Part shown: positions 5,363 through 54,435 of the stretch, piece after piece
Layout of the letters: each line of letters starts with the position of its first letter
How positions within the stretch are numbered: the first letter of the stretch is position 1
Source: Clostridia bacterium
GTDB lineage: Bacteria > Bacillota > Clostridia > Oscillospirales > Acutalibacteraceae
NCBI GenBank assembly: GCA_017624675.1
Contig: JAGAMO010000002.1
Span: 96,425 to 160,424 of the forward strand
DNA: 64,000 nucleotides
Reading direction: 5' to 3'
Notes under the pieces: generated by a model
Told to the model about the DNA's origin: nothing
The model's input: the letters and a program-made list of their open reading frames with translations, nothing else
The model's database searches: none
Position numbers and translations under genes: made by a program

Positions 5363-5417
5363 CAAAAATCAGAAAAGCATAACAACCATTACATTTTATG
5401 CCCTTTAATCTGTTTTT

Positions 5418-5578
5418 GATAGCACTCCGCAAATGCGACAGTAAAGGGGATATTATTCCCAATTACCAGAAAAGCCTTATGCCTTTGGCTCTCTTCGGCG
5501 ACCGTTCCTTTCGTTTAGGGTATCTTCCTGCCGGATTTAGCACCCCTAAATTACTTATAACAAGCCGCACCTCTATCT
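5418..5578 (-). promoter_or_regulatory. Lysine riboswitch (L box)
   Basis: Read on the minus strand, this leader contains the L-box landmarks in order: GATAGAGGTGCGG, AAGTA, GTCGCCGAAG, CTGG, ACTGTCGC and GGAGTGCTATC. P1 is formed by GATAG at the 5' end and CTATC at the 3' end. Lysine binding stabilises P1 and should free the downstream terminator hairpin, which switches off dapA-lysA-ung. The promoter start point falls at the very beginning of the aptamer. The family assignment is established knowledge; the switch partners are visible in this sequence. Confidence 0.95.
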
Positions 5579-5587
5579 TCCTAAATT

Positions 5588-5616
5588 AATCTACCATAAA
5601 ACGCAAAATTTGTCAA
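5588..5616 (-). promoter_or_regulatory. Promoter of the lysine-riboswitch operon
   Basis: TTGACA (5616-5611), 17-bp spacer and TAGATT (5593-5588) on the minus strand place the start of transcription at about 5581, immediately ahead of the aptamer. Confidence 0.8.
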
Positions 5617-5620
5617 GTCG

Positions 5621-6961
5621 TTATCTATTGTGTTTGTTCTCCCTTTCTTTGCCGTTATAGGGAATATATCTCACTTTGCGTTTCTTGATTTTTGTATAAT
5701 TCATAATTACACACCATACGGCAAAACCTACAACAGCCAAGCCTAATATCACATACACAACTATCATAGCTTTTGAAGTGAATATGCTCTTTATTACATC
5801 GGCGGTTTTTAACACAGCGTTAGCCTTAACATTTTCGCCCACAACCAAGTTAACTTTTCCTATAACCTTTTCGGCAAAAACAACCTCTGCCTCGCCCAAA
5901 ACCGCTCCCTTTTTAACGGGTGCTTTAACGCTTTCGGAATAAAGTTTTGTGTTTATAACAATGGTCGATTCGTCCGCATCTTTTGGCAAAACCGAAATAA
6001 ATGGTTTATCAAAATAAAGGGGCACAAAATCGGTTTCCATTGAAAGTTCTAAGGGAATTTCGCATACAGGCTCTGTAGAGTTTGCAATTTCTTTAAACTC
6101 AAAGTTATTAAACGCCCATCTAAAAAGGTTGGCGCACTCAACAAGTTCTTGCCTTTTCGACGGATTATTAGGAGAATTCATTAAAATGCAAAGATAGTTA
6201 TAACCATTATAAGAAGCGGTTGAGACAATACATCTGCCCGCCTCATCGGTATAACCCGTTTTGACACCCGAGGCATAGCTGTATTCATAGCCCGAATTAC
6301 TTCCCACAAGCAAGAAATTGGTTGTGGATAAAATTCTCTTGTCTTGCATATTGGTTGCGGGTAAAGTATATCTCGGTTTTGCACAAATTTCCTTAAAAGT
6401 TTTATTTTTCAAAGCATATTCGGTCATTTTATAAATATCAGCAACAGTAGTATAGTGCTTTGAATCGTGAATACCCATTGGGTTTGTGAAATTGGTGTCA
6501 TTCATACCGAGTTTTTTTGCGGTTTCGTTCATTTTTTTAACAAAAGCCTCGTGTGAACCGTAAAAATAATCGGCAGCAAGGCAACTTGCATCGCCAAAAG
6601 AACACATAATTATCATATGAAGCAAATCGGTGTGGGTAAACTCCTCCCCAACCTTAGTGTGAGAGTCGGTGACGCCTGTGCCCAAGATATCATTTCTTGC
6701 TTTCTTAGTCATTGTGATTTTAGAGTCGGGAGAATATTTGTCGCTCTCCAAAACCACCAAAGCGGTCATTATATTTGTAATAGCGGCAGGATAAACCTTT
6801 TTATTTTCGTTTTTACTAAATAAAGCTTCGCCTGTATCTAAAGAAACAAGCATACCCGATTTTGCGGTAATTTCGAAGCCTGTAACCTCGTAAGCCGAGA
6901 TAGACATACAGGGAAAAATTATTAAAATTGACAAAATTATAAAAAATATTCTTTTAAGCAT
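5621..6961 (-). CDS. D-alanyl-D-alanine carboxypeptidase homologue with lost active-site residues
   Basis: The 446-residue protein has the layout of DacF/PBP5-type peptidoglycan carboxypeptidases: signal peptide (about 1-23), penicillin-binding catalytic domain (about 30-290), a C-terminal beta domain, and a membrane anchor (about 397-422) with a basic tail. The catalytic SxxK box, expected in the context YPASTTK, reads YPAAITN (residues 57-63), so the nucleophilic Ser and the Lys are Ala60 and Asn63. The SxN box reads SFG (121-123) rather than SGN. KTG (234-236) is intact. The codons around the first motif read clearly. I infer an inactive, possibly peptidoglycan-sensing or scaffold protein. 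It is divergently placed from a degenerate metallophosphoesterase and a PASTA pseudokinase gene. Confidence 0.85.
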   Translation of the reverse strand: MLKRIFFIILSILIIFPCMSISAYEVTGFEITAKSGMLVSLDTGEALFSKNENKKVYPAAITNIMTALVVLESDKYSPDSKITMTKKARNDILGTGVTDSHTKVGEEFTHTDLLHMIIMCSFGDASCLAADYFYGSHEAFVKKMNETAKKLGMNDTNFTNPMGIHDSKHYTTVADIYKMTEYALKNKTFKEICAKPRYTLPATNMQDKRILSTTNFLLVGSNSGYEYSYASGVKTGYTDEAGRCIVSTASYNGYNYLCILMNSPNNPSKRQELVECANLFRWAFNNFEFKEIANSTEPVCEIPLELSMETDFVPLYFDKPFISVLPKDADESTIVINTKLYSESVKAPVKKGAVLGEAEVVFAEKVIGKVNLVVGENVKANAVLKTADVIKSIFTSKAMIVVYVILGLAVVGFAVWCVIMNYTKIKKRKVRYIPYNGKERENKHNR

Positions 6962-7054
6962 AGAAATATCTCCGAATATGTGATATACTGTGTATATATT
7001 TTAACATAACTTACCCAAAAATAAAAGTATAATTTTAAGTGTGGTGAAAAAAAC

Positions 7055-7732
7055 GTGGTTTACATTACCGGTGATATGCACGGCTGTCTTGAAAGACTTT
7101 ACGATAAAAACTTTCGCAAATTAAAAGCGGGTGATGTTTTAATTGTTGCGGGCGATTTTGGTTTTATATTTGACGGTTCTAAAACCGAGCGTCAGGTTAT
7201 TGACTATCTTGCCACTCGCCGATTTGTTACCGCCTTTGTTGACGGCACACACGACAACATGAAAAAAATTAATTCCGCGAGAGAAACCTATTGGCACGGC
7301 GGAAAGGTGCATAGAATTAAAGGCAACCTTATCCATTTAATGAGGGGGCAGATTTTCAGCATTGAAGGCCACAGCTTTTTCACATTCGGCGGTGGTGAAA
7401 GCACCGATAAGGATATGCGAATTGAAAACGGTCTTTGGTGGCGTGAGGAAGAACCAACTCCACAGGAAATGGCAGAGGGCGCCAAGCGTTTGGACGAAGC
7501 CGGTTGTAAGGTTGACTACATTGTAACCCACGAGCCCCCATCCCTTGTTAAAAGTTCAATGCTCCTTTTAAGAGGAGACAGTGACCGCGTTAACAAATTG
7601 GGTGGTTATTTTGAAGAAATCGGTCGTTCTTGCGAATATAAACACTGGTATTTCGGCTCACTTCACGAGGATAGACGCATTACTCCACACCACACCTGTG
7701 TTTTCAAAAAAATGATAGCTATTGGCGACTGA
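7055..7732 (+). CDS. Metallophosphoesterase (calcineurin-like), two metal ligands substituted
   Basis: The 225-residue protein follows the calcineurin-like fold with motif I GDMHG (6-10), motif II GDFGF (33-37), motif III GTHDN (64-68), motif IV THEPP (His159) and motif V GSLH (201-204). Close relatives have GNHEN and GHYH. Here the metal-bridging Asn is Thr65 and the first His of motif V is Ser202, so metal binding is probably reduced or altered. The start is GTG 7055 behind GGTG. It is followed after 55 bp by a PASTA kinase homologue. Substrate is unknown. Confidence 0.8.
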   Translation: MVYITGDMHGCLERLYDKNFRKLKAGDVLIVAGDFGFIFDGSKTERQVIDYLATRRFVTAFVDGTHDNMKKINSARETYWHGGKVHRIKGNLIHLMRGQIFSIEGHSFFTFGGGESTDKDMRIENGLWWREEEPTPQEMAEGAKRLDEAGCKVDYIVTHEPPSLVKSSMLLLRGDSDRVNKLGGYFEEIGRSCEYKHWYFGSLHEDRRITPHHTCVFKKMIAIGD

Positions 7733-7733
7733 C

Positions 7734-7761
7734 TTGACAGTCGTGGTAAAATAAATATAGA
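7734..7761 (+). promoter_or_regulatory. Promoter for the PASTA pseudokinase gene
   Basis: TTGACA (7734-7739) lies just after the upstream stop codon. With a 16-bp spacer it points to TATAGA (7756-7761). An extended -10 TGGTAAAAT (7744-7752) sits within the same stretch, at 7 bp from the TTGACA, and could act without a -35 element. Confidence 0.5.
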
Positions 7762-7787
7762 AAACCATCAATTTCGGAGGATTATTT

Positions 7788-9446
7788 ATGATTAATACCG
7801 ATGGATTATGTTTAGGCTGTATGAGTGATAACGGTGGAGAAAAGGTTTGCCCTATCTGCGGATTTGACAGCGCTTCTCAAAACCCAAGTTTTGCTCTACC
7901 CTTAAAATCAGTCTTGGAAAACCGCTATTTTATAGGTAAAACCCTGTCGGTTGACGGTGAGGGTATTACATATATAGGTTGGGATAATTCAAAAAACTGC
8001 AAAATAACAGTCAAAGAATATTTCCCCAAGAATTTTGCCCGTCGAAATCCTGACAAGACTGTTTCGATTGACGAAAACGGCAAATACACCTTTAATGAGG
8101 GATTACTTGAGTTTTTAGATGTTAACCGCGCGGTTATTTTGTCTACCCTCCCCTCTTTAATGCCCATTTATGATGTATTCGAGGCAAACGGCACTGCATA
8201 CTCTGTTTGCGAACTCATCTCAGGCATTACTTTGGGCGAATTTTTAAACAAGAACGGTGGGACACTCAAATGGGAACAAGCCCGTCCCCTTTTCTTGCCC
8301 CTTATTGATACTATTGAGGGCATGAATGCCATTGGTTACATTCACGGCGGTATTTCCGAAAACAGCGTAATCGTTGGCAGAGACGGAAAGCTAAGAATTT
8401 CGGGTTATTCTGTAAAGAAGCTTCGTCGTGAAAGTGAGTTAGAGCCTTTGCTTTACAACGGCTTTGCCGCTTGCGAGCAATACGGCATAGAAGATATGAC
8501 GGTTGGCACCTACACCGATGTTTACGGTCTTTGCGCCACCCTTTTCAGAGTGCTCATTGGCTCGGTGCTCCCTACCTCTACACAGCGCTTAGAAAACGAT
8601 GTTATGACAATTCCCGCAAAATTTGCCGAGGAATTGCCCCACCAGGTTTTAGCGGCTCTTGCAAACGGATTGCAGGTAAGACCCCAAAATCGCACCAAAA
8701 ACATAGAACAGCTTAAAAACGAGTTGGTTTACGGAGAAATTGAAACTCCAGCGCCCGTAGAGAAAAAGACCGTTTCAAAAGAGGTTTCTTCTGTTTCTAA
8801 AAAGAAAAAGAATGATACAACAAAATATATTATCATTTCTGCTCTCTGCACTGTTGCAGTTTTGATATTACTTGTTCTATTACTGTTTAAAGACAGTATT
8901 TTCAAAAAGAATGACGATACAAGTTCAGGCGTTCAAAGTGTTGTTTCTTTTGAAGAGCCAGATGTTAACTCAATCGGCGAAATTGACAGTGGCGCTGAGA
9001 TTACTGCAAAGCTATACCCCGTTCCTGATTTAAAGGGTAAATATTTCTCAGAAATTATTGAAAACGACGAATGGGAAATGTTTGAGTTTGTATTGTCGAA
9101 GAAAGAATATTCAAACGACTGTCCTAAAGGCACCGTTTGCGGACAGTCATTAAAGGCTGGTACCGAAGCTGTCAGAGACACTAAGATTGAGGTTATAATC
9201 TCCTTAGGTGCTAAAGAATTTAACATTGCAAATGTTAAAGACCTTAGTGAGCAGGAAGCAAAATTAGAACTTTTAAAGCAAGGCTTTTTATATGAAAATA
9301 TAAAGGTTTTGGAGAAATATGACGAGGACAGCGAATCGGGCGTTGTTTTAGAACAAGTGCCCAAATTCGGTGAAAGTGTTACTGCCGAGGCAGTTGTTGA
9401 AATTTATATTAACTCCTACAAAGGCGATGCCTCATCTTCAAACTAA
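7788..9446 (+). CDS. Zinc-ribbon, pseudokinase and PASTA-domain membrane protein
   Basis: The 552-residue protein has an N-terminal zinc ribbon (Cys8, 11, 21, 24), a Ser/Thr kinase-like domain (about 45-315), a charged linker, one membrane helix (about 347-368) and two extracellular PASTA-like repeats (about 405-545). It resembles clostridial PrkC-like kinases (VKEYFP with Lys76, GFAACEQY and TDVYGLCATLF are recognisable). The catalytic loop HRD is HGG (186-188), so the catalytic Asp is missing, and the DFG triplet is SGY (205-207), so the metal-binding Asp is missing; Asn192 remains. I infer a pseudokinase that may still bind nucleotide and cell-wall muropeptides. Start ATG 7788 follows GGAGG. 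Confidence 0.88.
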   Translation: MINTDGLCLGCMSDNGGEKVCPICGFDSASQNPSFALPLKSVLENRYFIGKTLSVDGEGITYIGWDNSKNCKITVKEYFPKNFARRNPDKTVSIDENGKYTFNEGLLEFLDVNRAVILSTLPSLMPIYDVFEANGTAYSVCELISGITLGEFLNKNGGTLKWEQARPLFLPLIDTIEGMNAIGYIHGGISENSVIVGRDGKLRISGYSVKKLRRESELEPLLYNGFAACEQYGIEDMTVGTYTDVYGLCATLFRVLIGSVLPTSTQRLENDVMTIPAKFAEELPHQVLAALANGLQVRPQNRTKNIEQLKNELVYGEIETPAPVEKKTVSKEVSSVSKKKKNDTTKYIIISALCTVAVLILLVLLLFKDSIFKKNDDTSSGVQSVVSFEEPDVNSIGEIDSGAEITAKLYPVPDLKGKYFSEIIENDEWEMFEFVLSKKEYSNDCPKGTVCGQSLKAGTEAVRDTKIEVIISLGAKEFNIANVKDLSEQEAKLELLKQGFLYENIKVLEKYDEDSESGVVLEQVPKFGESVTAEAVVEIYINSYKGDASSSN

Positions 9447-9475
9447 AACAGATACACATATTTTTAAAAAAAGTA

Positions 9476-9505
9476 TAGACAAAGGCCCCCTTTTAATGGT
9501 ATAAT
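9476..9505 (+). promoter_or_regulatory. Promoter for rsmD-coaD
   Basis: TAGACA (9476-9481), an 18-bp spacer and TATAAT (9500-9505), preceded by TGG, which gives an extended -10. Confidence 0.65.
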
Positions 9506-9553
9506 GTGCTGTGTATAATACTTAAAGTATTAACTTTTTATTTTGGTGATGCT

Positions 9554-17704: not shown

Positions 17705-18541
17705 ATGTTCGGATATATTAAAATTTCCAAAGGCGAATTAAAGGTTAAAGAATACGAAATGTATAAAGCAGTTTACTGTTCCCTTTGCAAAACCTTAGGA
17801 AAGCATTACGGCATTTTGTCACGCCTGACACTAAGCTACGATTTCACCTTTTTAGCGCTTCTCAATATGTCGCTTAAAGAGGGGTGTGACCAAATCGAGC
17901 GAAAGCGTTGCACCTTTAACCCCTTGAAAAAGTGTAATTACTGCAAAAATACTGACAGTCTCTCGATGCCGTCGGCTGTTGCAATGATTATGCTATATTT
18001 TAAAATTCTTGACAATATAGCCGACGAAAAAGGCTTTAAAAAAATGGGTTTCACCCTTTTAAAACCCATTTTTAAAGGTGCCTACAAAAAAGCGTCAAAG
18101 AATTTTCCGCATATAAATGATATTGTAAAGGAATATATTGACACCCAAAACAGTTTGGAAAAATCGGGTTGCGAACAGTTAGATGAGGTTGCTGACCCCA
18201 CCGCCAAAGCACTTTCTAAAATATTTATGCTTTGCAGTGAAGATGAAACTCAAAAGTTGGTTTTGCAAAGACTTGGCTACTGTTTGGGCAGATATGTTTA
18301 TCTTTTAGATGCGGCGGCAGATTTTTCGAAAGACACAGAACAAAATAAATATAATGTCTTAAAGTTTACTTGCAAAACACAAGAGGATGTAAACAAAAAA
18401 ATAGAGCCTCAGCTTTATTTTTGCATTAACGAGGGTGCTAAAGCATTCGAACTTTTAGACATCAAAAAATATAAACACATTTTAGGAAATATAATCTATT
18501 TAGGTTTGGAAGACACCTTTAAAAAGGAGCTTGAAATATGA
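17705..18541 (+). CDS. DUF5685 family protein
   Basis: The 278-residue protein has CSLC (Cys25, Cys28) near the N-terminus and a second set Cys61, Cys69, Cys77 and Cys80 (CNYC), which together suggest a metal site, followed by a largely helical region. It resembles DUF5685 proteins of clostridia, whose function is unknown. Its stop overlaps the start of the J-domain gene (ATGA), which shows tight coupling. Confidence 0.75.
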
Positions 18542-19140
18542 AAGACCCCTATTCCGTTTTAGGCGTTAGCAAAAACGCTACCGACGAAGAAATTAAAAAC
18601 GCTTACCGTGAAATGGCGAGAAAGTATCATCCTGATAATTACCAGGATAATCCCCTTTCCGATTTGGCGGCAGACAAAATGAAAGAGATTAACGAGGCTT
18701 ACGACGCTATAATGAACAGCCGCAGAGGTCACAAAAGCACCTATGACGGCAATTTCAACCAAAGCGGTGCCTCCTCTTTCCCAGAAGTTAGGTCACTAAT
18801 TGCTCAAAACCGTTTGGAACAGGCGCAAGAGGTGCTTGACGGTGTTCCCATCGGCAACCGCAACGCCGAGTGGTATTTCTTAAACGGCACTGTTTTGCAC
18901 CGCCGTGGCTGGTTTGACCAGGCATATACCTCATTTGCTACCGCTTGCAGAATGGAGCCCACAAACCCCGAATACCGCAACGCTTTAAACCGTGCTCAAG
19001 CACAGGCTAACCGTGGATATAACCCCTATAGAAGCTATGGTAACGCAGGTGGCTGTGACGGTTGTGACTGCTGCACCAACCTTTTGTGTGCTGACTGCCT
19101 TTGCGAATGTATGGGCGGTGACCTAATTCCTTGTTGCTAA
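18538..19140 (+). CDS. J-domain protein with TPR-like segment and Cys-rich tail
   Basis: The 200-residue protein has an N-terminal J domain with HPD at 31-33, which stimulates DnaK-type ATPases, then a tetratricopeptide-like helical segment (about 85-150) and a C-terminal tail with ten cysteines in the last 30 residues ([16 protein letters not shown] and a final CC). It lacks the DnaJ G/F and zinc-finger domains, so it is a specialised cochaperone, not DnaJ itself. It is coupled to the DUF5685 gene upstream and a membrane protein downstream. Confidence 0.85.
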
Positions 19141-30953: not shown

Positions 30954-33900
30954 TTATTTTTCTTCTTTTTTTATTTTGTTGAGGTAAAATGTGGTGCCGA
31001 AAATTCCACCGCCGCTTACAAACAAGAGCGCAAACCAAAGATGGAGATTTGTTGTATCACCGGTCTTAGGACTTTCAGGATACTCAGGTTCAGGCTTCGG
31101 CTCGGTGGTTGGAGTATAATCGTAAACGTTCTCAAACTCAGCAACTACTACCGCCTCTTTTTTACCATTCTTTGTAAGTGTTGCAACCAACTCATTGTTT
31201 GCGTTCAGCTCGATTGCTACCGTAATGGTATATTCTGCGGTGCTGTACGAAACATTTGCTTTGCCGTCGTTTACTTCGGTCAGCTTGTAGGTGTAGATTT
31301 TATCTGCATCCTCTTCGCTGTAACCTAAGGCGAAGTTTGCTTTACCCTTAGAATCGGTCTTAACTCTGAGTTTTTCGTTGGTTTCTGTGTTTTCAAGCAG
31401 GAACTCAAAGCCTTCGGGAGTAAGCTTTTCACTACCCTTATTCACAACGGTTTTTTCTACCCCTATCTCAACCTTAATACCTTCCGGCTTTGGAACATAG
31501 ACATTGGTAAAATCAAGCTTTGTAACGGATACAGTTTCCAAAGAGTGTGCTTTGTCTATATTCATTACGTGCGCTTCCATTTCTCCATGACCATTATCAA
31601 GTACATTTACAGTTATGTGATACTCGGCAGAGTCGTAAAGCACTCGGTCGGTTTCGGCGGGAATATGCTCTTTAAGCACATAATAGTGATATCCTCTGTC
31701 GGCACTTGTATATTCTAAAGTAATAGAATATTTTCCTTCTCCGTTCGAAACAGTTGCGTTTCCACTCTTTATTAGAGAATCAATAGAAAAGTCGCTGTTT
31801 GCATTATACAAACCAAAGCTGAACTCTCCGCTATCTTTATTAAAGTACTTGGTGCCGCTAAAAGTCAGATTGGTGCCTGTTGCCGCATAGCTGTTCACAA
31901 AGGACAGGTTAATATCAGTAATTTCTATACCGTTAAGAGTCACCGTTTTTGTTACTCCGCCTTTGCTGTCATCCTTAAGGGCTACAACAAGTCTATATGT
32001 GTCATTTAGATTCGGGTCGGAGTTGTAGGTAACACCCCTCTTGTCCTGATTAGCATTCGGGATGACCTCTTTGATGGTGTAAACATATTCCTTGTTAAGA
32101 CCCCTTTCGTTTACAACGTCATAATGAATTGTTGGGAACAAGAAATTACCATCAGCATCGTTTTGAACCTTTGTGTCAAAAGGCATTGGTGCGCCCTGGG
32201 TTTCAGCAGTTATCTCAAACTCAAACTCGCCTTCAACAAGGCGTCTTCCGTTTAAAGTCTTATTACCACGGATAACTACTTCCTCGTTACCATTTACCAC
32301 ATAGGTGTTGTTGAAATTAAGAGCATCGGCATTGACATCACCTATACCAACCTTATGAATATGGGTTGCATTGGCGGTCAGAACCGTCTTGTTATTATTT
32401 ATAGCTTTGGTAACATCTACGGTAATGTGGTAAACGGTGTTATCGTAAATAATGCCATCAACTGTTGTTCCACCATTTTCTTCACGAACAACAAGATGCT
32501 TTGTTCCAACACTGTCAAATGTGATGTCGTCAAAAACATACTCACCATTTGCAGTCTGACTGTTTACAACCTTGGTTTGTTTTGCCTGTAAGCCACCAAT
32601 ATTAAAGGTTGCATCGGTTTCATACAATTCAAATGTAAAGGTATCGCCTTGTCTTAATGCCCCATCATTAAGGGTCTTTTTGCCACCAAAAGAAATGGCT
32701 GGTGTATGCAGATTGCTGTCATAGGTGTTAGTAATTGTAAGCGGCGCAGTAATATCGTTAATTTCTGTACCTAAGCCATTAACTGCGTTTGCATCGTAGT
32801 TGTAATGTTTAACTGTAGGAGCATCATTAGCCGCATCCCAAACAACGCTGACAACATACTTAACTGCAGTATCATAGGTCATACCAACAACCTGACTCTC
32901 CAAGGGAGGAAGCATTTCACGAATATAGTAGTATTTGGTGTTTGCATATTCATTTTTAAATACTGGGAATTTAATAGTTGCGCTACCGTCTGCCGCAGTA
33001 ATTGTATTGTAAACGGGAGCTGTTGACTCAGGAGTCTCAAACACACCAAACAAAATACCGCCGCTATGCTTGTTTACAGCTGCATTGTTTTCATCAACAA
33101 CCTTCTTGAAAAGAGGAATGTTTACCACAGAGGTCTGATAATAGTTCGTAAAGTTTTTAGTAATTTCATATCCGCTCTGACCTTCCTGAATTTCTTGGCC
33201 TGAAGGATATAGGCTAACTTTTCCTACCTTTAAGCTGCCCGAAGCATCATCTATAATCTCAACCGAGAAAATAGCAAAGGTGGCATCGTACTTAATGTTG
33301 GGAACTCTGTCTGCTACATCGCTTGGAAAAACTTCATACACCATAAAGCTGTATGTGCCAACCTTATTAAATACAAGAGGAGAAGTGCCGTTTTCTGCTT
33401 TTAGTTCATTTACATTAAGTGAATATGATTTTTGATTCTTATCAAGTGTCGCATATACGGGATCTCCTATTGCTATGTGGTCAGAATCTGTGCCGCCTAA
33501 GGTAATCTGCTGTAACGCAACCTGATAAACGTCCTCGTCTCCCCATACCTTTGTTGTTCCATCGTTGTTAAGAATGGTTTTCTCTCCGCTCATTTTGATA
33601 TTAGCCGAAACAGAAGAAGGGGAATAGTTGTTTACAAGCAAAGCCTCTGACTGAATATCGTTAGTCACTGTGCCTTTACGGAGGTTTTCATCTGTCACAA
33701 GAGTAAATCCACTTGTGATATTTTCTTCGGTTACTAAATACTCTACGCCTGCAGGAATATGTGTAAACAACGCATCGTGTCCGTCTTTGAGCTTCAAGGT
33801 GTAGACGCTATCCGAAACCTTAGTTGCAGTAGCAGGTGGTGCAATTTGTGCAAGGTCATTTGCATCCCCTGTAAACTCTACCTTTATATCGAACTCCTTG

Positions 33901-36900
33901 TTTGCAAGTTCAGTAGTAATATTAGTAAATGGATGGGTTACATCCTTTTCAACAAGAAGGCTACCATAACCCTTGGGAGAGTTTACAAAATCAACCTCTG
34001 AGAAAGCGTGAGATTGAACAATGTTGTTTGAGTTGGAAGCTGCCGCTGTATAGTATTGGTTATACTTCTCGGTTACTGTATATGCCACACCGGCGTCAAT
34101 ATCATAGATATATGCCACATCGCCATTTTTAAGGGTCAGGTTCAGTTTTCCAGCATTAACATCGGTGGAGTAGGTAGTAGGATTACCCACAGCATGTTCA
34201 ATATATACGGTGTAAGAATCTGCTACTTGAGACTCTTGAGTGCCTGTCAGTGAAATCTCAAAATCAAAGGAATCGGGGGCATTTGATACAACCTGACTAA
34301 CGCTTTTGCTTAATTTAATTCCTTGTGCAGGAGTTGCTTTTACAAGGCCGTTATTACCGTGATAGTTAAGTATATGATAGCCGTGGTGTTCTTCCGAATC
34401 GTGATAAACCATCTGAGGATAGGCAGAAAATCCCAAAGTGTTAGTTGGGTTTGCGGTTTTATGGCTGTGTGCCTGTTCTCCGTGAACCTCTTCTCCGAAA
34501 TAGAATTGAGGAGTTCCTTTCTTTACAAACCAACCCTGTTTGCCATCTATCTGAATAATGTTTTCGGCATCCTTTAATATTTCGGTAGCTATCGGGTCAT
34601 AGGCAGTTTTTAATGTGGCATTATTTGCGCTACCTTCAACCCACTTATATTCTATGAAATACGAACCGTTTTCATTAGGCTTAGAACCTGTATAAACATT
34701 ATAAGAGCTATCTAAAATCTGCATATTTTCGGTATAGTAAAAACGCTGATTTTCAAGGGAAGGAATAAATTGAGTAACGGTGGTATTCATAATTCCGTGA
34801 TTGAAAATGTGGGGGTCTACTACACTAGGTCTGACAAAAGTACTACCATTCACATCTCTCCAGCGATTTGTATAGAAGGTGTACACGCCGTTTGAATCCT
34901 TGCGGAAATCCTCGCCCACCTTTTCTGTAATATTTACAGGGGTAATTTCACTGTCAAGGCCAACCTCAAAAAGTAGGGAGATAGGCTTCTTCTGTTGACG
35001 AGTAATGCCTGTAATATTCTCAGAAGTTAAGGTGTCACCATCAACTGTAATGGTGTAGGTAACCATAGGCAGAAGTGCCGCAGGTATATTGATATCAACA
35101 ATTTGTCTACCTGTTTCGATATCCTCTTTTACACGAACTAAGGCATAAAGCATAGAGGTTTCAACGTGGTTCTGAGTAACGTCTCCCATATAAAAGTAAG
35201 AACGAACAACATATTTTGCATTATTTTGTGCCAAAGCATTGGCTTTAGTATATGGCGCAATATAATTGTTGTCCTCATCTGCATACCAGGCAATATAATT
35301 AGAAAACTCGTTGGCAGAGGTGTAGGAAATAAATCCGTTGTCCTTTGCAGTATTTAAAAGCAACGACGCTTCAGAAAGAGAAATGCTAAATCTCTCAGAA
35401 ACTGCACTAAGAATTTCATTTTCAAACCCTACAAGCTCATTCTCATCATAGTTATTGTTATCGTAATCTTCAACTAAGCCGGTTGTTGCAAACTCGGCGA
35501 ACATTCCGCCCGAAACTAATTTACCATCGCCGATATAGATTCCCTTTACATTCTTAACCTCCATATAGGAACCGATTTCGTCGGTAAAGGATACAAATCC
35601 GTCCTGAGCATGATTGTTGGAGGGAACTAAAGTGCTATAATAACGGGACTGAATTATGATTTCATCAACTATGGAATCGAATGCAGACTGAAGCTGAGAA
35701 GCCTGAGCCGCCTGCCAATAGCGATCAACATAGTCCAGTGTAGTTACCCTGTCAGGAGAAGACATTCTTGTAACTCTGAATGCAGTTTGATTATTTTCAT
35801 TGTTAATTGTAGCCGTTGAACCCTGTTCTATTCTAAGATACTGAGAAGCGTAGCTTGAAAATCTAGAGGCTAATGCGTTATTGGGGTTCATCGGGTCAAG
35901 CACATTCTGTGCATACTGATGGTTTGCAGAAAGTGCATATCCCAAGGTGTAAAAACGGGTATCCATTCCGTAATGAGCAGTAATTTCAGCCTCTGCCCAA
36001 GCGGCAGTCAGCATTGTACTAAAGGCAGTAACATCATCCTCACGGAAGTTGCTGCGGTCTGCATTACCGTTGGTAGCCGCATTATACCTGTTAATCGTAG
36101 TATTGGAGCCTGTTTGTGTGCGATAAGAAGGCTCTCCGTCGGTCATAAGCACCATAATGGGAATACGCTTGGTACCACCCTGAATTTTGCCATCCTCAAT
36201 AACCGTATCGGCAGATAAAAACTGCTCGGCCGCAGTGTAAATACCGCCCTGTGTATAGGTGCCCTGTGCCTGTGGAACATAATTTGCAGTAACAAACTGC
36301 TTGTTGCTGTTCTTTACATTAGAAGCAATGTATATTCGGTTTTCGTAGGTGTATGGGTCACGCCATGTGCCTGAGCCACCAGTCACGGTTCTTTCGTAAC
36401 GGAGAATATCACCATTGGCATTTTCAGAAGTATATCTGTCAAGTGGCAAAAGGACAGAAGATGTACCGTTATAAATTACCACTCCCACACGGTTATAGTT
36501 ATTAAGGGAAATTAGGCGTTTAATAGCTTCGTTAGCGCCGTATACCATATCATCGATAGAGGAGGTTGCCTCATCTCCGGTGCCCATACTTGTACTTGCA
36601 TCAAGCACTAATATTGTGTCTGTAGGATTGTGAGAATATCCCAAAACCTCAGAGTTAGAACCAAGCGCTGAAAGAGCAACCAAGAAGTTCTCATTACCGA
36701 AATTGTCATTTTCAAAGGAAAGGGAGGTTCTTATATCTCTAAAATAATCATCAGATAGTGCTTCGCTTGCAGTGTATACCGATTTATCTAAAAAGATACT
36801 TCCTGCTGCTCGGCTACTGCCTTCAGGAAACCATGTTTCCCATCCGTTTAATGTCTTTGGGTCGGCAACCGAGCTGCTGTTTGTTGCCACGGGAGCCGCC

Positions 36901-36983
36901 CATACGGAAATTGGCAAACAACTCATAAGCAATACAACTGAGAGAAAAATGCTTACGATTTTTTTAGTTAATTTTGTCTTCAT
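30954..36983 (-). CDS. Giant wall-anchored surface protein: vWA domain plus chain of isopeptide-type repeats
   Basis: The 2009-residue protein has a signal peptide (1-29), a von Willebrand A domain (about 120-440) with metal site Asp128-x-Ser130-x-Ser132 and TDGEPS at 281-286, a middle region with a His-rich patch (834-875), and about eight tandem Ig-like domains (885-1954). Each starts with a lysine after a strand (for example GEKT, GKKT, GNKT, GTKY, VEKT) and ends with an Asn in F-x-N-x-Y (FTNYY, ITNTY, FNNTY, FVNSY, FTNVY, FENVY), the pattern of FctA/Spy0128 pilin domains with Lys-Asn isopeptide bonds. The C-terminus has the sortase motif SPKTG (1971-1975), a membrane helix and KIKKEEK. 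The start at ATG 36983 has GGAGG 7 bases upstream. It is probably an adhesin or pilus-like stalk. No sortase gene is in the window. Confidence 0.88.
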   Translation of the reverse strand: MKTKLTKKIVSIFLSVVLLMSCLPISVWAAPVATNSSSVADPKTLNGWETWFPEGSSRAAGSIFLDKSVYTASEALSDDYFRDIRTSLSFENDNFGNENFLVALSALGSNSEVLGYSHNPTDTILVLDASTSMGTGDEATSSIDDMVYGANEAIKRLISLNNYNRVGVVIYNGTSSVLLPLDRYTSENANGDILRYERTVTGGSGTWRDPYTYENRIYIASNVKNSNKQFVTANYVPQAQGTYTQGGIYTAAEQFLSADTVIEDGKIQGGTKRIPIMVLMTDGEPSYRTQTGSNTTINRYNAATNGNADRSNFREDDVTAFSTMLTAAWAEAEITAHYGMDTRFYTLGYALSANHQYAQNVLDPMNPNNALASRFSSYASQYLRIEQGSTATINNENNQTAFRVTRMSSPDRVTTLDYVDRYWQAAQASQLQSAFDSIVDEIIIQSRYYSTLVPSNNHAQDGFVSFTDEIGSYMEVKNVKGIYIGDGKLVSGGMFAEFATTGLVEDYDNNNYDENELVGFENEILSAVSERFSISLSEASLLLNTAKDNGFISYTSANEFSNYIAWYADEDNNYIAPYTKANALAQNNAKYVVRSYFYMGDVTQNHVETSMLYALVRVKEDIETGRQIVDINIPAALLPMVTYTITVDGDTLTSENITGITRQQKKPISLLFEVGLDSEITPVNITEKVGEDFRKDSNGVYTFYTNRWRDVNGSTFVRPSVVDPHIFNHGIMNTTVTQFIPSLENQRFYYTENMQILDSSYNVYTGSKPNENGSYFIEYKWVEGSANNATLKTAYDPIATEILKDAENIIQIDGKQGWFVKKGTPQFYFGEEVHGEQAHSHKTANPTNTLGFSAYPQMVYHDSEEHHGYHILNYHGNNGLVKATPAQGIKLSKSVSQVVSNAPDSFDFEISLTGTQESQVADSYTVYIEHAVGNPTTYSTDVNAGKLNLTLKNGDVAYIYDIDAGVAYTVTEKYNQYYTAAASNSNNIVQSHAFSEVDFVNSPKGYGSLLVEKDVTHPFTNITTELANKEFDIKVEFTGDANDLAQIAPPATATKVSDSVYTLKLKDGHDALFTHIPAGVEYLVTEENITSGFTLVTDENLRKGTVTNDIQSEALLVNNYSPSSVSANIKMSGEKTILNNDGTTKVWGDEDVYQVALQQITLGGTDSDHIAIGDPVYATLDKNQKSYSLNVNELKAENGTSPLVFNKVGTYSFMVYEVFPSDVADRVPNIKYDATFAIFSVEIIDDASGSLKVGKVSLYPSGQEIQEGQSGYEITKNFTNYYQTSVVNIPLFKKVVDENNAAVNKHSGGILFGVFETPESTAPVYNTITAADGSATIKFPVFKNEYANTKYYYIREMLPPLESQVVGMTYDTAVKYVVSVVWDAANDAPTVKHYNYDANAVNGLGTEINDITAPLTITNTYDSNLHTPAISFGGKKTLNDGALRQGDTFTFELYETDATFNIGGLQAKQTKVVNSQTANGEYVFDDITFDSVGTKHLVVREENGGTTVDGIIYDNTVYHITVDVTKAINNNKTVLTANATHIHKVGIGDVNADALNFNNTYVVNGNEEVVIRGNKTLNGRRLVEGEFEFEITAETQGAPMPFDTKVQNDADGNFLFPTIHYDVVNERGLNKEYVYTIKEVIPNANQDKRGVTYNSDPNLNDTYRLVVALKDDSKGGVTKTVTLNGIEITDINLSFVNSYAATGTNLTFSGTKYFNKDSGEFSFGLYNANSDFSIDSLIKSGNATVSNGEGKYSITLEYTSADRGYHYYVLKEHIPAETDRVLYDSAEYHITVNVLDNGHGEMEAHVMNIDKAHSLETVSVTKLDFTNVYVPKPEGIKVEIGVEKTVVNKGSEKLTPEGFEFLLENTETNEKLRVKTDSKGKANFALGYSEEDADKIYTYKLTEVNDGKANVSYSTAEYTITVAIELNANNELVATLTKNGKKEAVVVAEFENVYDYTPTTEPKPEPEYPESPKTGDTTNLHLWFALLFVSGGGIFGTTFYLNKIKKEEK

Positions 36984-37047
36984 ATTTTTTCCTCCAAGGA
37001 TAACTTTTTTAGCTATTATCTGCGATTGAATTTTTAAGTGTTGCAAT

Positions 37048-37428
37048 CTATTCATTTTTTACATCCGCCCTTTCTTTACAACAGCGTTTGTTTTGTGGGC
37101 AATTACATAGACCGAACAGTTCTTCATATTTTTGAAAGAAACTACAATCAGAGCAACTACTGTCTTCATCGTTTTTTCCGTTATAGAATTCACATACATT
37201 TTGCATTTCTGTCGCTATAGGAATCCCTTCAGCCGTATAATGCGGTTCTTTGATAAAGTCCGGATAAATCGGTATTGGGTCATTAAACGGACTTTCTCTC
37301 TCAAAGCTTTCGTAATAACCATATAATAATCTAAATGTTTTACCGAAGATGGTTACTTCCTTATATAAGTCGCCCTCTTTGGGTGTAGGCGATTGTTCCA
37401 CGCCTTGCATTAAAACCTTTGTTAACAT
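37048..37428 (-). CDS. Small Cys-rich protein of unknown function upstream of the surface protein
   Basis: The 126-residue protein starts at ATG 37428 with AAAGGAG upstream. The last 35 residues hold seven cysteines (CEFYNG, CSDC, CNC, CC), which suggests metal binding. There is no signal peptide or membrane helix, so it is probably cytoplasmic. It ends 64 bp before the surface-protein gene and is likely in the same transcript. No family was recognised. Confidence 0.65.
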   Translation of the reverse strand: MLTKVLMQGVEQSPTPKEGDLYKEVTIFGKTFRLLYGYYESFERESPFNDPIPIYPDFIKEPHYTAEGIPIATEMQNVCEFYNGKNDEDSSCSDCSFFQKYEELFGLCNCPQNKRCCKERADVKNE

Positions 37429-53346: not shown

Positions 53347-54435
53347 ATGAAAAGAATTATTACCCTTTTACTTGTTTTGACAATAGGGTTTGGTTGCGTG
53401 GGTTGCAAAAATGTAACTCCAACAGATAGTTCTTCTGCAGACTCGGTAACTGAAACTGTTGCCGAGTCTGTTTTTGAGGAAAGCTTTATACCCTCAACCA
53501 ACTCCGAGCCTATTGTAAATAATTTTGACATTACCCTGACCTTTTTAGGCGATATGATTTTGGCTAACCAAAAAGATGTGCATCCAAAGGGAAGATTTGA
53601 AGAATACGCCCAAAATAATCCGCCTGAATATTTTTTAAGTCGGGTTAAAGATATTTTATCGGCAGATGATTTCACATTGGCAAATCTTGAAAATGTTTTT
53701 TCTGACCGAGATTTGCCACCAAAAGAAAAGAACTACTCCCCTGCCTTTTGGTTTAAAACAAATGTTAAAAATCTTGATGTTTTAAAGAGTGGCAGTATTG
53801 ATTCGGTTTTAATTACCAACAATCACATTATGGATTATGGTGACGAGGGATACAAAGATACACAAGACGCTATAGCAAATGCAGGTATTAATTACGGCAC
53901 AGATTATAATGTTATCCGCCTTGAGAAAAACGGCTTCAAAATTGATGTTATTTGCACAGGACTTTGGGGGCAATACAACATTAATAACACTATAAACCGC
54001 TTGAAAAAGTCCGAAACAGAAAGCGATTTCCAAATTGTCTTTTTCCACGGCGGCACCGAGAAAATTCACGCTCCCGAACAATTCAAGGTTGACGCAGCCC
54101 ACGCTTTTGTTGACAACGGTGCGGATTTAGTCGTTGGCGGTCATCCCCATGTTTTACAACCAAGAGAAATTTATAACGGCGTTGAAATTGTTTATTCTCT
54201 AGGTAATTTTTGTTACGGCGGTGCCTTAAAACCCGAAAACCGCACTGTTATTTATCAATATACACTTACAGTTAATAACCAGAGTTTAGCGCTCGAAAAC
54301 AAATCATCAAATATAATTCCTTGTTACGTTTATACAGGAAGTTCCAACAACTATCAACCCGCACCTATAACAAACGAGGCTGAAAAACAAAAAGTTTTGG
54401 ACTTTATGAACTGGAAAACTGACAGTCCTGTATAA
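53347..54435 (+). CDS. CapA/PgsA-family lipoprotein
   Basis: The 362-residue protein has a lipobox GCVGC (Cys20), an acidic/Ser linker and a CapA-type metallophosphatase-like domain: TFLGDMIL, NLENVFSD, TNNHIMDYGDEG, FFHGG, VVGGHPHVLQP and YSLGNFCYGG. In Bacillus such proteins take part in poly-gamma-glutamate production, but no capB or capC is nearby, so the role is open. It starts 2 bp after serS. Confidence 0.87.
   Translation: MKRIITLLLVLTIGFGCVGCKNVTPTDSSSADSVTETVAESVFEESFIPSTNSEPIVNNFDITLTFLGDMILANQKDVHPKGRFEEYAQNNPPEYFLSRVKDILSADDFTLANLENVFSDRDLPPKEKNYSPAFWFKTNVKNLDVLKSGSIDSVLITNNHIMDYGDEGYKDTQDAIANAGINYGTDYNVIRLEKNGFKIDVICTGLWGQYNINNTINRLKKSETESDFQIVFFHGGTEKIHAPEQFKVDAAHAFVDNGADLVVGGHPHVLQPREIYNGVEIVYSLGNFCYGGALKPENRTVIYQYTLTVNNQSLALENKSSNIIPCYVYTGSSNNYQPAPITNEAEKQKVLDFMNWKTDSPV

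Follow-up and report, generated by a model that had tools for sequence, protein, structure and literature searches.

We analyzed a 64,000-nucleotide stretch of DNA (the window; G000:C15:96425-160424) from a Clostridia bacterium of the family Acutalibacteraceae, whose draft genome is 1.58 Mb and 96.7% complete. Three adjoining genes in the window encode a homolog of the D,D-carboxypeptidase penicillin-binding protein 5 (PBP) that lacks the nucleophile, a metallophosphoesterase (MPE) with an altered metal site, and a PASTA-domain pseudokinase. Across relatives, the PBP-MPE gene pair is conserved, the altered MPEs in our sample have a single origin, and the pseudokinase is conserved as well. Also, the catalytic serine was lost repeatedly from the paired PBP and not from the paralogs that we sampled. 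We tentatively propose, with doubts that are weighed below, that Acutalibacteraceae and some related families maintain these genes as a cell-envelope module, with the PBP and the MPE as its core and the pseudokinase joined in one part. The retention of the altered sites over evolution points to a preserved role for the trio, or for the pair, in gut Clostridia. (The relatives that carry these genes are metagenome-assembled genomes, many of animal-gut origin. One of them, L245, is Candidatus Limimonas, which NCBI places in Acutalibacteraceae.)

The three intact reading frames lie where a first-pass annotation, made without database searches, had placed them (Table 1). That annotation described three neighboring genes, which holds with one correction: the PBP gene diverges from the other two, which are in a tandem row. 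The damaged motifs that it reported are also there. In the PBP, alignment with relatives shows that AxxN replaces SxxK and SFG replaces SxN, while KTG is retained. The MPE reads GTHD for GNHE and GSLH for GHxH, so that T65 and S202 replace two metal ligands, and the kinase homolog has G188 and G206 in place of the catalytic and the metal-binding Asp. In Pfam, the PBP matches Peptidase_S11 (PF00768, E=1.7e-43) plus PBP5_C, the MPE matches Metallophos (PF00149, E=7e-09), and the kinase homolog matches PASTA (E=2.5e-19) and, at 18.9 bits, falls below the 31.7-bit cut-off for Pkinase. The best match of the PBP in the PDB is 3mfd (E=1.2e-32); for the MPE, the PDB yielded no useful match. Because of its AxxN, we classify the PBP from its sequence as an S11 homolog and do not assign it to the active members. 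Hydropathy suggests that the PBP, with hydrophobic stretches at the N-terminus (~1-21) and near the C-terminus (~403-423), is anchored at its C-terminus outside the cell, that the kinase homolog (~343-374) spans the membrane once, and that the MPE, which has no hydrophobic segment, is soluble and inside the cell.

The PBP adjoins the MPE in 107 of 111 genomes from the family. The other four are G070 and G036, where contigs end, G060, and G100, whose MPE is canonical. The 111 best-copy MPEs come from 117 genomes with a match (30 loci, 76 regions, and five found via PBP loci); G014, G024, G026, G091, G106, and G120 fall outside this reading, and four second copies were added separately. If we consider MPEs with at least 1.2 kb of upstream sequence, 173 of 186 altered MPEs are linked to a PBP, versus 0 of 16 canonical MPEs. 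(This is a separate count from the 173 non-redundant PBP-MPE pairs that we refer to from here on.) The two genes are divergent in 172 of the 173 pairs, with a median gap of 126 bp (n=179, near-duplicates still included). These neighborhood counts are limited by the draft genomes, and many loci have only 1.5 kb of flanking sequence. Removing near-duplicates reduced 180 pairs to 173 and 194 MPEs to 192, and kinases were also reduced by the sequence of the catalytic region; in counts other than the final ones, exact copies were removed at most. All trees were built with FastTree.

The change in the MPE happened once in our sample. Of the 111 best copies, 110 lack both the GNH Asn and the first GHxH His, with G100 as the exception. 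Over all loci in which both positions were aligned (which excludes rows gapped at residue 65 or 202), there are 192 altered and 17 canonical MPEs and none with a mixture, although the loci were retrieved with queries from the altered clade and canonical MPEs are under-sampled. On the tree, the altered MPEs group apart from the 36 canonical rows in a single clade with a support of 97, which corresponds to one change; the signature columns were masked for the order-level rows only. At the level of the class, 20 of 196 genomes have MPE matches. Both motifs are canonical in 24 of the 25 rows, and in L344 the one motif that can be seen, the second, is canonical too. Neither the PBP nor the kinase homolog was found at these loci. 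A 970-amino-acid open reading frame (ORF) at G045:C123 carries, as judged by eye, a canonical MPE that lies outside the altered clade. Among the three proteins, the MPE is the best conserved (12 loci compared). Some altered MPEs (L019, L023, L024, and L033) have long charged or low-complexity C-terminal tails, which may be interaction segments.

The altered MPE may not be dead. We take the positions of T65 and S202 to be ligands of metal 2, as in Mre11 and lambda phosphatase, and by the same scheme D7, H9, D34, H66, H159, and H204 would be five metal ligands, with metal site 1 complete, plus the catalytic His. The window's MPE retains all six, and each is found in nearly all of the 192 altered MPEs (D7 in 188, H9 in 191, D34 in 192, H66 in 190, H159 in 185, and H204 in 192). 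Since the catalytic His and the predicted first metal site are kept and site 2 is short of two ligands, an altered site may describe the MPE better than a dead enzyme does, and the first-pass view of a non-catalytic MPE is weakened by these five metal ligands and the His. This leads to the most serious alternative: the MPE could still work as a phosphoesterase, using either a single metal or a second site re-built from E115 and E160, and be co-regulated with a PBP that is active as well. The kinase would then be the only true pseudoenzyme, and the losses in the PBP would be secondary. Besides the near-universal ligands, the distribution of the two glutamates favors this alternative: of the 192 altered MPEs, 177 have E115 and 174 have E160, compared with 2 and 0 of the 17 canonical ones. 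But E115 is also found in some canonical class-level MPEs, and both of the lost residues are presumed metal-2 ligands. We consider an active, co-regulated MPE to be possible, if somewhat unlikely.

The history of the PBP is different. Among the 173 paired PBPs, which were required to span 330 query residues, 140 retain both the Ser and the Lys of SxxK and 78 retain all of the motifs. The Ser is lost in 26, the Lys in 25, both in 18, and the Asn of SxN in 83. The Ser was replaced by Ala in 22 cases, Gly in 3, and Thr in 1. The tree of paired PBPs requires no fewer than 12 losses of the Ser (support for one of the groups is only 20). Shuffled labels require 24.4 changes on average, so the losses are inherited in groups. 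For instance, the PBPs of the window and L189 share AxxN and form one clade (support 98), even though they are just 55-56% identical and their synonymous divergence is saturated. In three other PBPs that lost the Ser (L106, L120, and L249), KTG has become KQT or KYT while the Lys of SxxK remains, which is a different route to the loss of the active site.

Could the PBP be losing its active site neutrally? The window's genome encodes three further carboxypeptidase homologs with SxxK and KTG, two of which have SxN while the third has SGA, and the losses of Ser are scattered over the tree, as expected if selection on the PBP were relaxed and it persisted for structural reasons or were on its way out. 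However, the forms without the Ser are old and constrained. Besides the shared AxxN of the window and L189, a pair of PBPs that lost the Ser in another family of the order (L271 and L274) has a ratio of nonsynonymous to synonymous divergence (dN/dS) of 0.037 at a dS of 2.1, which is near saturation, and two groups without the Ser, with 7 and 6 members (support 100 and 85), still cover at least 330 query residues. Furthermore, a DacB-like paralog, which is never at the pair's location, keeps STTK, SGN, and KTG in 30 of 30 best matches; these come from 59 genomes that matched an intact paralog query, so the comparison favors intact forms. Relaxed selection thus seems unlikely to us.

In contrast to the PBP, the kinase homolog appears to be an old bacterial Ser/Thr pseudokinase whose loss of motifs is conserved across its homologs. 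We examined 98 non-redundant homologs, from the best 30 matches, 39 chosen regions, and loci from two further sets, and excluded the paralogs L002-L004. The Asp of HRD is absent from all 98 (Gly in 87 and Ala in 11), and the Asp of DFG is retained in 13. The catalytic-loop Asn has given way to Thr in 72 homologs and is retained in 16; at the position of the beta-3 Lys, 68 carry Arg and 24 carry Lys. The window's protein reads HGG for HRD, has no DFG, has S193 for the catalytic-loop Asn, and keeps the beta-3 Lys (K76). Its Zn-ribbon cysteines (C8, C11, C21, and C24) are present in all 108 aligned rows except for the paralog L003. In the same genome, the Zn-ribbon kinase L002 and the PASTA kinase L003 keep both the HRD and the DFG Asp. 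Because all 98 homologs are altered while L002 and L003 are intact, this is an old group of pseudokinases rather than damage in this genome. PADLOC matched the kinase homolog to defense models for PASTA or Hanks kinases, which we judged to be unspecific.

A search of related genomes for the three genes together, as the first-pass annotation had suggested, found the PBP-MPE-kinase row in 34 non-redundant loci, with the kinase directly downstream of the MPE. Relatives with the same neighborhood and full catalytic motifs would speak against a non-catalytic trio, and they exist in part: the PBP of the row has SxxK in 27 loci (AxxN in 2, SxxQ in 2, AxxK in 1, SxxT in 1, and SxxV in 1), but none has the full set, as all 34 have SxG. 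So the idea of a maintained module is supported, and the idea that its members are jointly non-catalytic is supported only in part, given that 27 of the 34 rows keep the Ser and the Lys. The argument that a chance run of three decayed enzymes is unlikely also holds up, since 107 of 111 genomes have the pair, 34 loci have the row, and the altered sites are old. None of the alterations of the three proteins looks recent. Their histories differ, and on this ground we rejected a single event behind all three losses. We also rejected recent decay or an assembly error: the frames are open, AxxN is shared with L189, and the changes in the kinase and the MPE are widespread. That the gene order is simply inherited, with no joint function, fits the restriction of the kinase's adjacency to one part of the family, but it is improbable given the pair's conservation, the lack of any PBP linkage for canonical MPEs in our sample, and 17 long loci in which, of the window genes that we examined, only weak ABC-ATPase matches lay beside the trio or the pair. 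(Elsewhere, L056 has rsmD, coaD, and the window's 10623 gene before the kinase, L057 has cdaR after the kinase, and L151 has a weak dapA match near the pair.)

We favor a wall-monitoring module in which, for the PBP, binding outweighs cleavage. The core would be the membrane-anchored PBP outside the cell and the altered MPE inside. If the useful property of the PBP is to bind the stem peptides of peptidoglycan, rather than to cleave them, then catalysis could be lost wherever other carboxypeptidases do the cutting. The MPE would bind, or with one metal slowly cleave, a phosphorylated or nucleotide ligand, and would thereby report the state of the envelope. Where it is present, the pseudokinase would read the wall via its PASTA repeats and act by binding, with the other PASTA kinase of the genome as one possible target. 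For the trio as a whole, the sensing or scaffold role that the first-pass annotation had raised is an inference. We think it rather unlikely that the three re-purposed enzymes form an outright transmembrane receptor for peptidoglycan, with the PBP, in a change that happened repeatedly, as a binding-only wall sensor, the MPE as its cytoplasmic signaling partner, and the pseudokinase as a co-receptor by which the active PASTA kinase is tuned.

Several observations weigh against a maintained module of this kind. SxxK is kept in 140 of the 173 paired PBPs, so PBP catalysis is probably still in use in most lineages, and one of the 26 "lost" serines is a Thr (L140) that might still act. The complete metal site 1 of the altered MPE, discussed above, is another such point. 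The loss of the PBP's Ser is not associated with residue 65 of the MPE once phylogeny is allowed for: this residue is not Thr in 13 of 26 pairs without the Ser versus 39 of 154 with it, and across 9 independent pairs the median p is 1. The kinase joins in one part of the family only; of the 117 sampled genomes in which the MPE has a match, just 6 have the kinase next to it by coordinates. Finally, 13 of the 186 altered MPEs have no PBP in range (L202, where a PBP is ~3.6 kb away, L167, L236-L239, L242, and L248, and from other families L265, L266, and L268-L270).

Some of these loci, L239 and L248 (also L236-L238 and L242), offer a natural test of the MPE working alone. More generally, pseudoenzymes are usually studied singly, and the gene pair lends itself to a natural comparison, since the PBP5-like gene next to the altered phosphoesterase comes in forms that keep the nucleophile and forms that lack it, across 12 or more separate lineages. 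This makes it possible to test whether D,D-carboxypeptidase homologs have a non-catalytic role in wall sensing in Gram-positive bacteria. In addition, a widespread PASTA pseudokinase is now placed in a genomic context.

The region between the PBP and MPE genes might hold competing promoters. In the window, we noticed by eye two facing -10-like boxes, TGTGATATACT on the + strand and TATGTTAAAAT on the - strand. A strict pattern of two facing, extended -10-like boxes occurs in 35 of 174 intergenic regions versus 0.36 in shuffled ones, and with any gap, the boxes are face-to-face in 53 regions and back-to-back in 10. Part of this excess is selection, because we had noticed the pattern in close relatives before counting. 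The window's own intergenic region does not match the strict pattern, and a generic promoter scan of positions 5380-9550 found no more than in shuffles. If the boxes are real, they could be overlapping, competing promoters or start sites.

Table 1. Features of the three-gene locus, in window positions.
Feature	Position	Strand	Basis
PBP5/DacB-like S11 D,D-carboxypeptidase homolog, 446 aa, nucleophile lost	5621..6961	-	ORF, Pfam, alignment
A60-I-T-N63 at SxxK position	6773..6784	-	alignment
S121-F-G123 at SxN position	6593..6601	-	alignment
K234-T-G236 triad, intact	6254..6262	-	alignment
Divergent intergenic region, 93 bp	6962..7054	.	sequence by eye
Metallophosphoesterase-family protein, 225 aa, metal site 2 altered (predicted)	7055..7732	+	ORF, Pfam, alignment
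T65 for Asn of GNHE	7247..7249	+	alignment
S202 for first His of GHxH	7658..7660	+	alignment
E115 (GGGE), enriched in altered clade	7397..7399	+	alignment
E160 immediately following putative metal ligand H159, enriched in altered clade	7532..7534	+	alignment
Zn-ribbon, pseudokinase, hydrophobic segment, and two PASTA stretches, 552 aa	7788..9446	+	Pfam, hydropathy
H186-G-G188 at HRD position	8343..8351	+	alignment
G206 for DFG Asp	8403..8405	+	alignment

Away from this locus, three other ORFs of the window stood out by eye. A 2033-amino-acid ORF resembling surface proteins (30954-37055, - strand) ends in PESPKTGD, a hydrophobic segment, and KKEEK, which resembles a sorting signal. The ORF at 53347-54435 (+ strand) looks like CapA and is a candidate for a phosphoesterase fold apart from the pair, and the one at 18538-19140 (+ strand) looks like a DnaJ-domain protein with a cysteine-rich tail.

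We found no description of the PBP-MPE pair in the open-access literature that we searched. The PBP shares its fold family, KTG, and the PBP5_C domain with DacB of Bacillus subtilis and other PBP5-type S11 D,D-carboxypeptidases, but it differs in its AxxN, its SxG, and its pairing with an MPE gene that is read in the opposite direction. Similarly, the pseudokinase has the kinase fold, the one hydrophobic segment, and the PASTA repeats of the Ser/Thr kinases PrkC, PknB, and Stk1, but its group has an N-terminal Zn-ribbon, an HRD Asp in 0 of 98 members, and a DFG Asp in 13 of 98; the window's genome also encodes a PASTA kinase that has HRD. The portion of a review of bacterial pseudokinases that we consulted describes no PASTA family and has the word PASTA in its reference list only (PMC12599244). 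It does describe the DYD pseudokinases, which are membrane-associated proteins of firmicutes that are defined by a DYD motif and have Arg for the beta-3 Lys (PMC12599244). That Arg is also in 68 of our 98 homologs, but these mostly have xGF at the DYD position; the window's protein has SGY there and keeps the Lys, so with neither the motif nor the Arg it falls outside the DYD family.

Two other proteins offer parallels. According to one report, CD2148 of C. difficile is a degenerate Hanks kinase beside an active PrkC, it modulates the PrkC-dependent phosphorylation of CwlA, and it has Ser in place of the D and N residues; the authors cannot exclude a pseudokinase (PMC9674922). Unlike the window's pseudokinase, CD2148 is described there as lacking PASTA domains (PMC9674922). 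VPS29 of the retromer uses a metallophosphoesterase fold as a scaffold (PMC9636581; see also PMC4772447 for VPS29). Unlike our MPE, it is eukaryotic, and the likeness is at the level of the fold. By analogy, CD2148 and VPS29 are precedents for the roles that a degenerate kinase and a scaffold phosphoesterase might have here, and neither one shows that the module in the window works this way.

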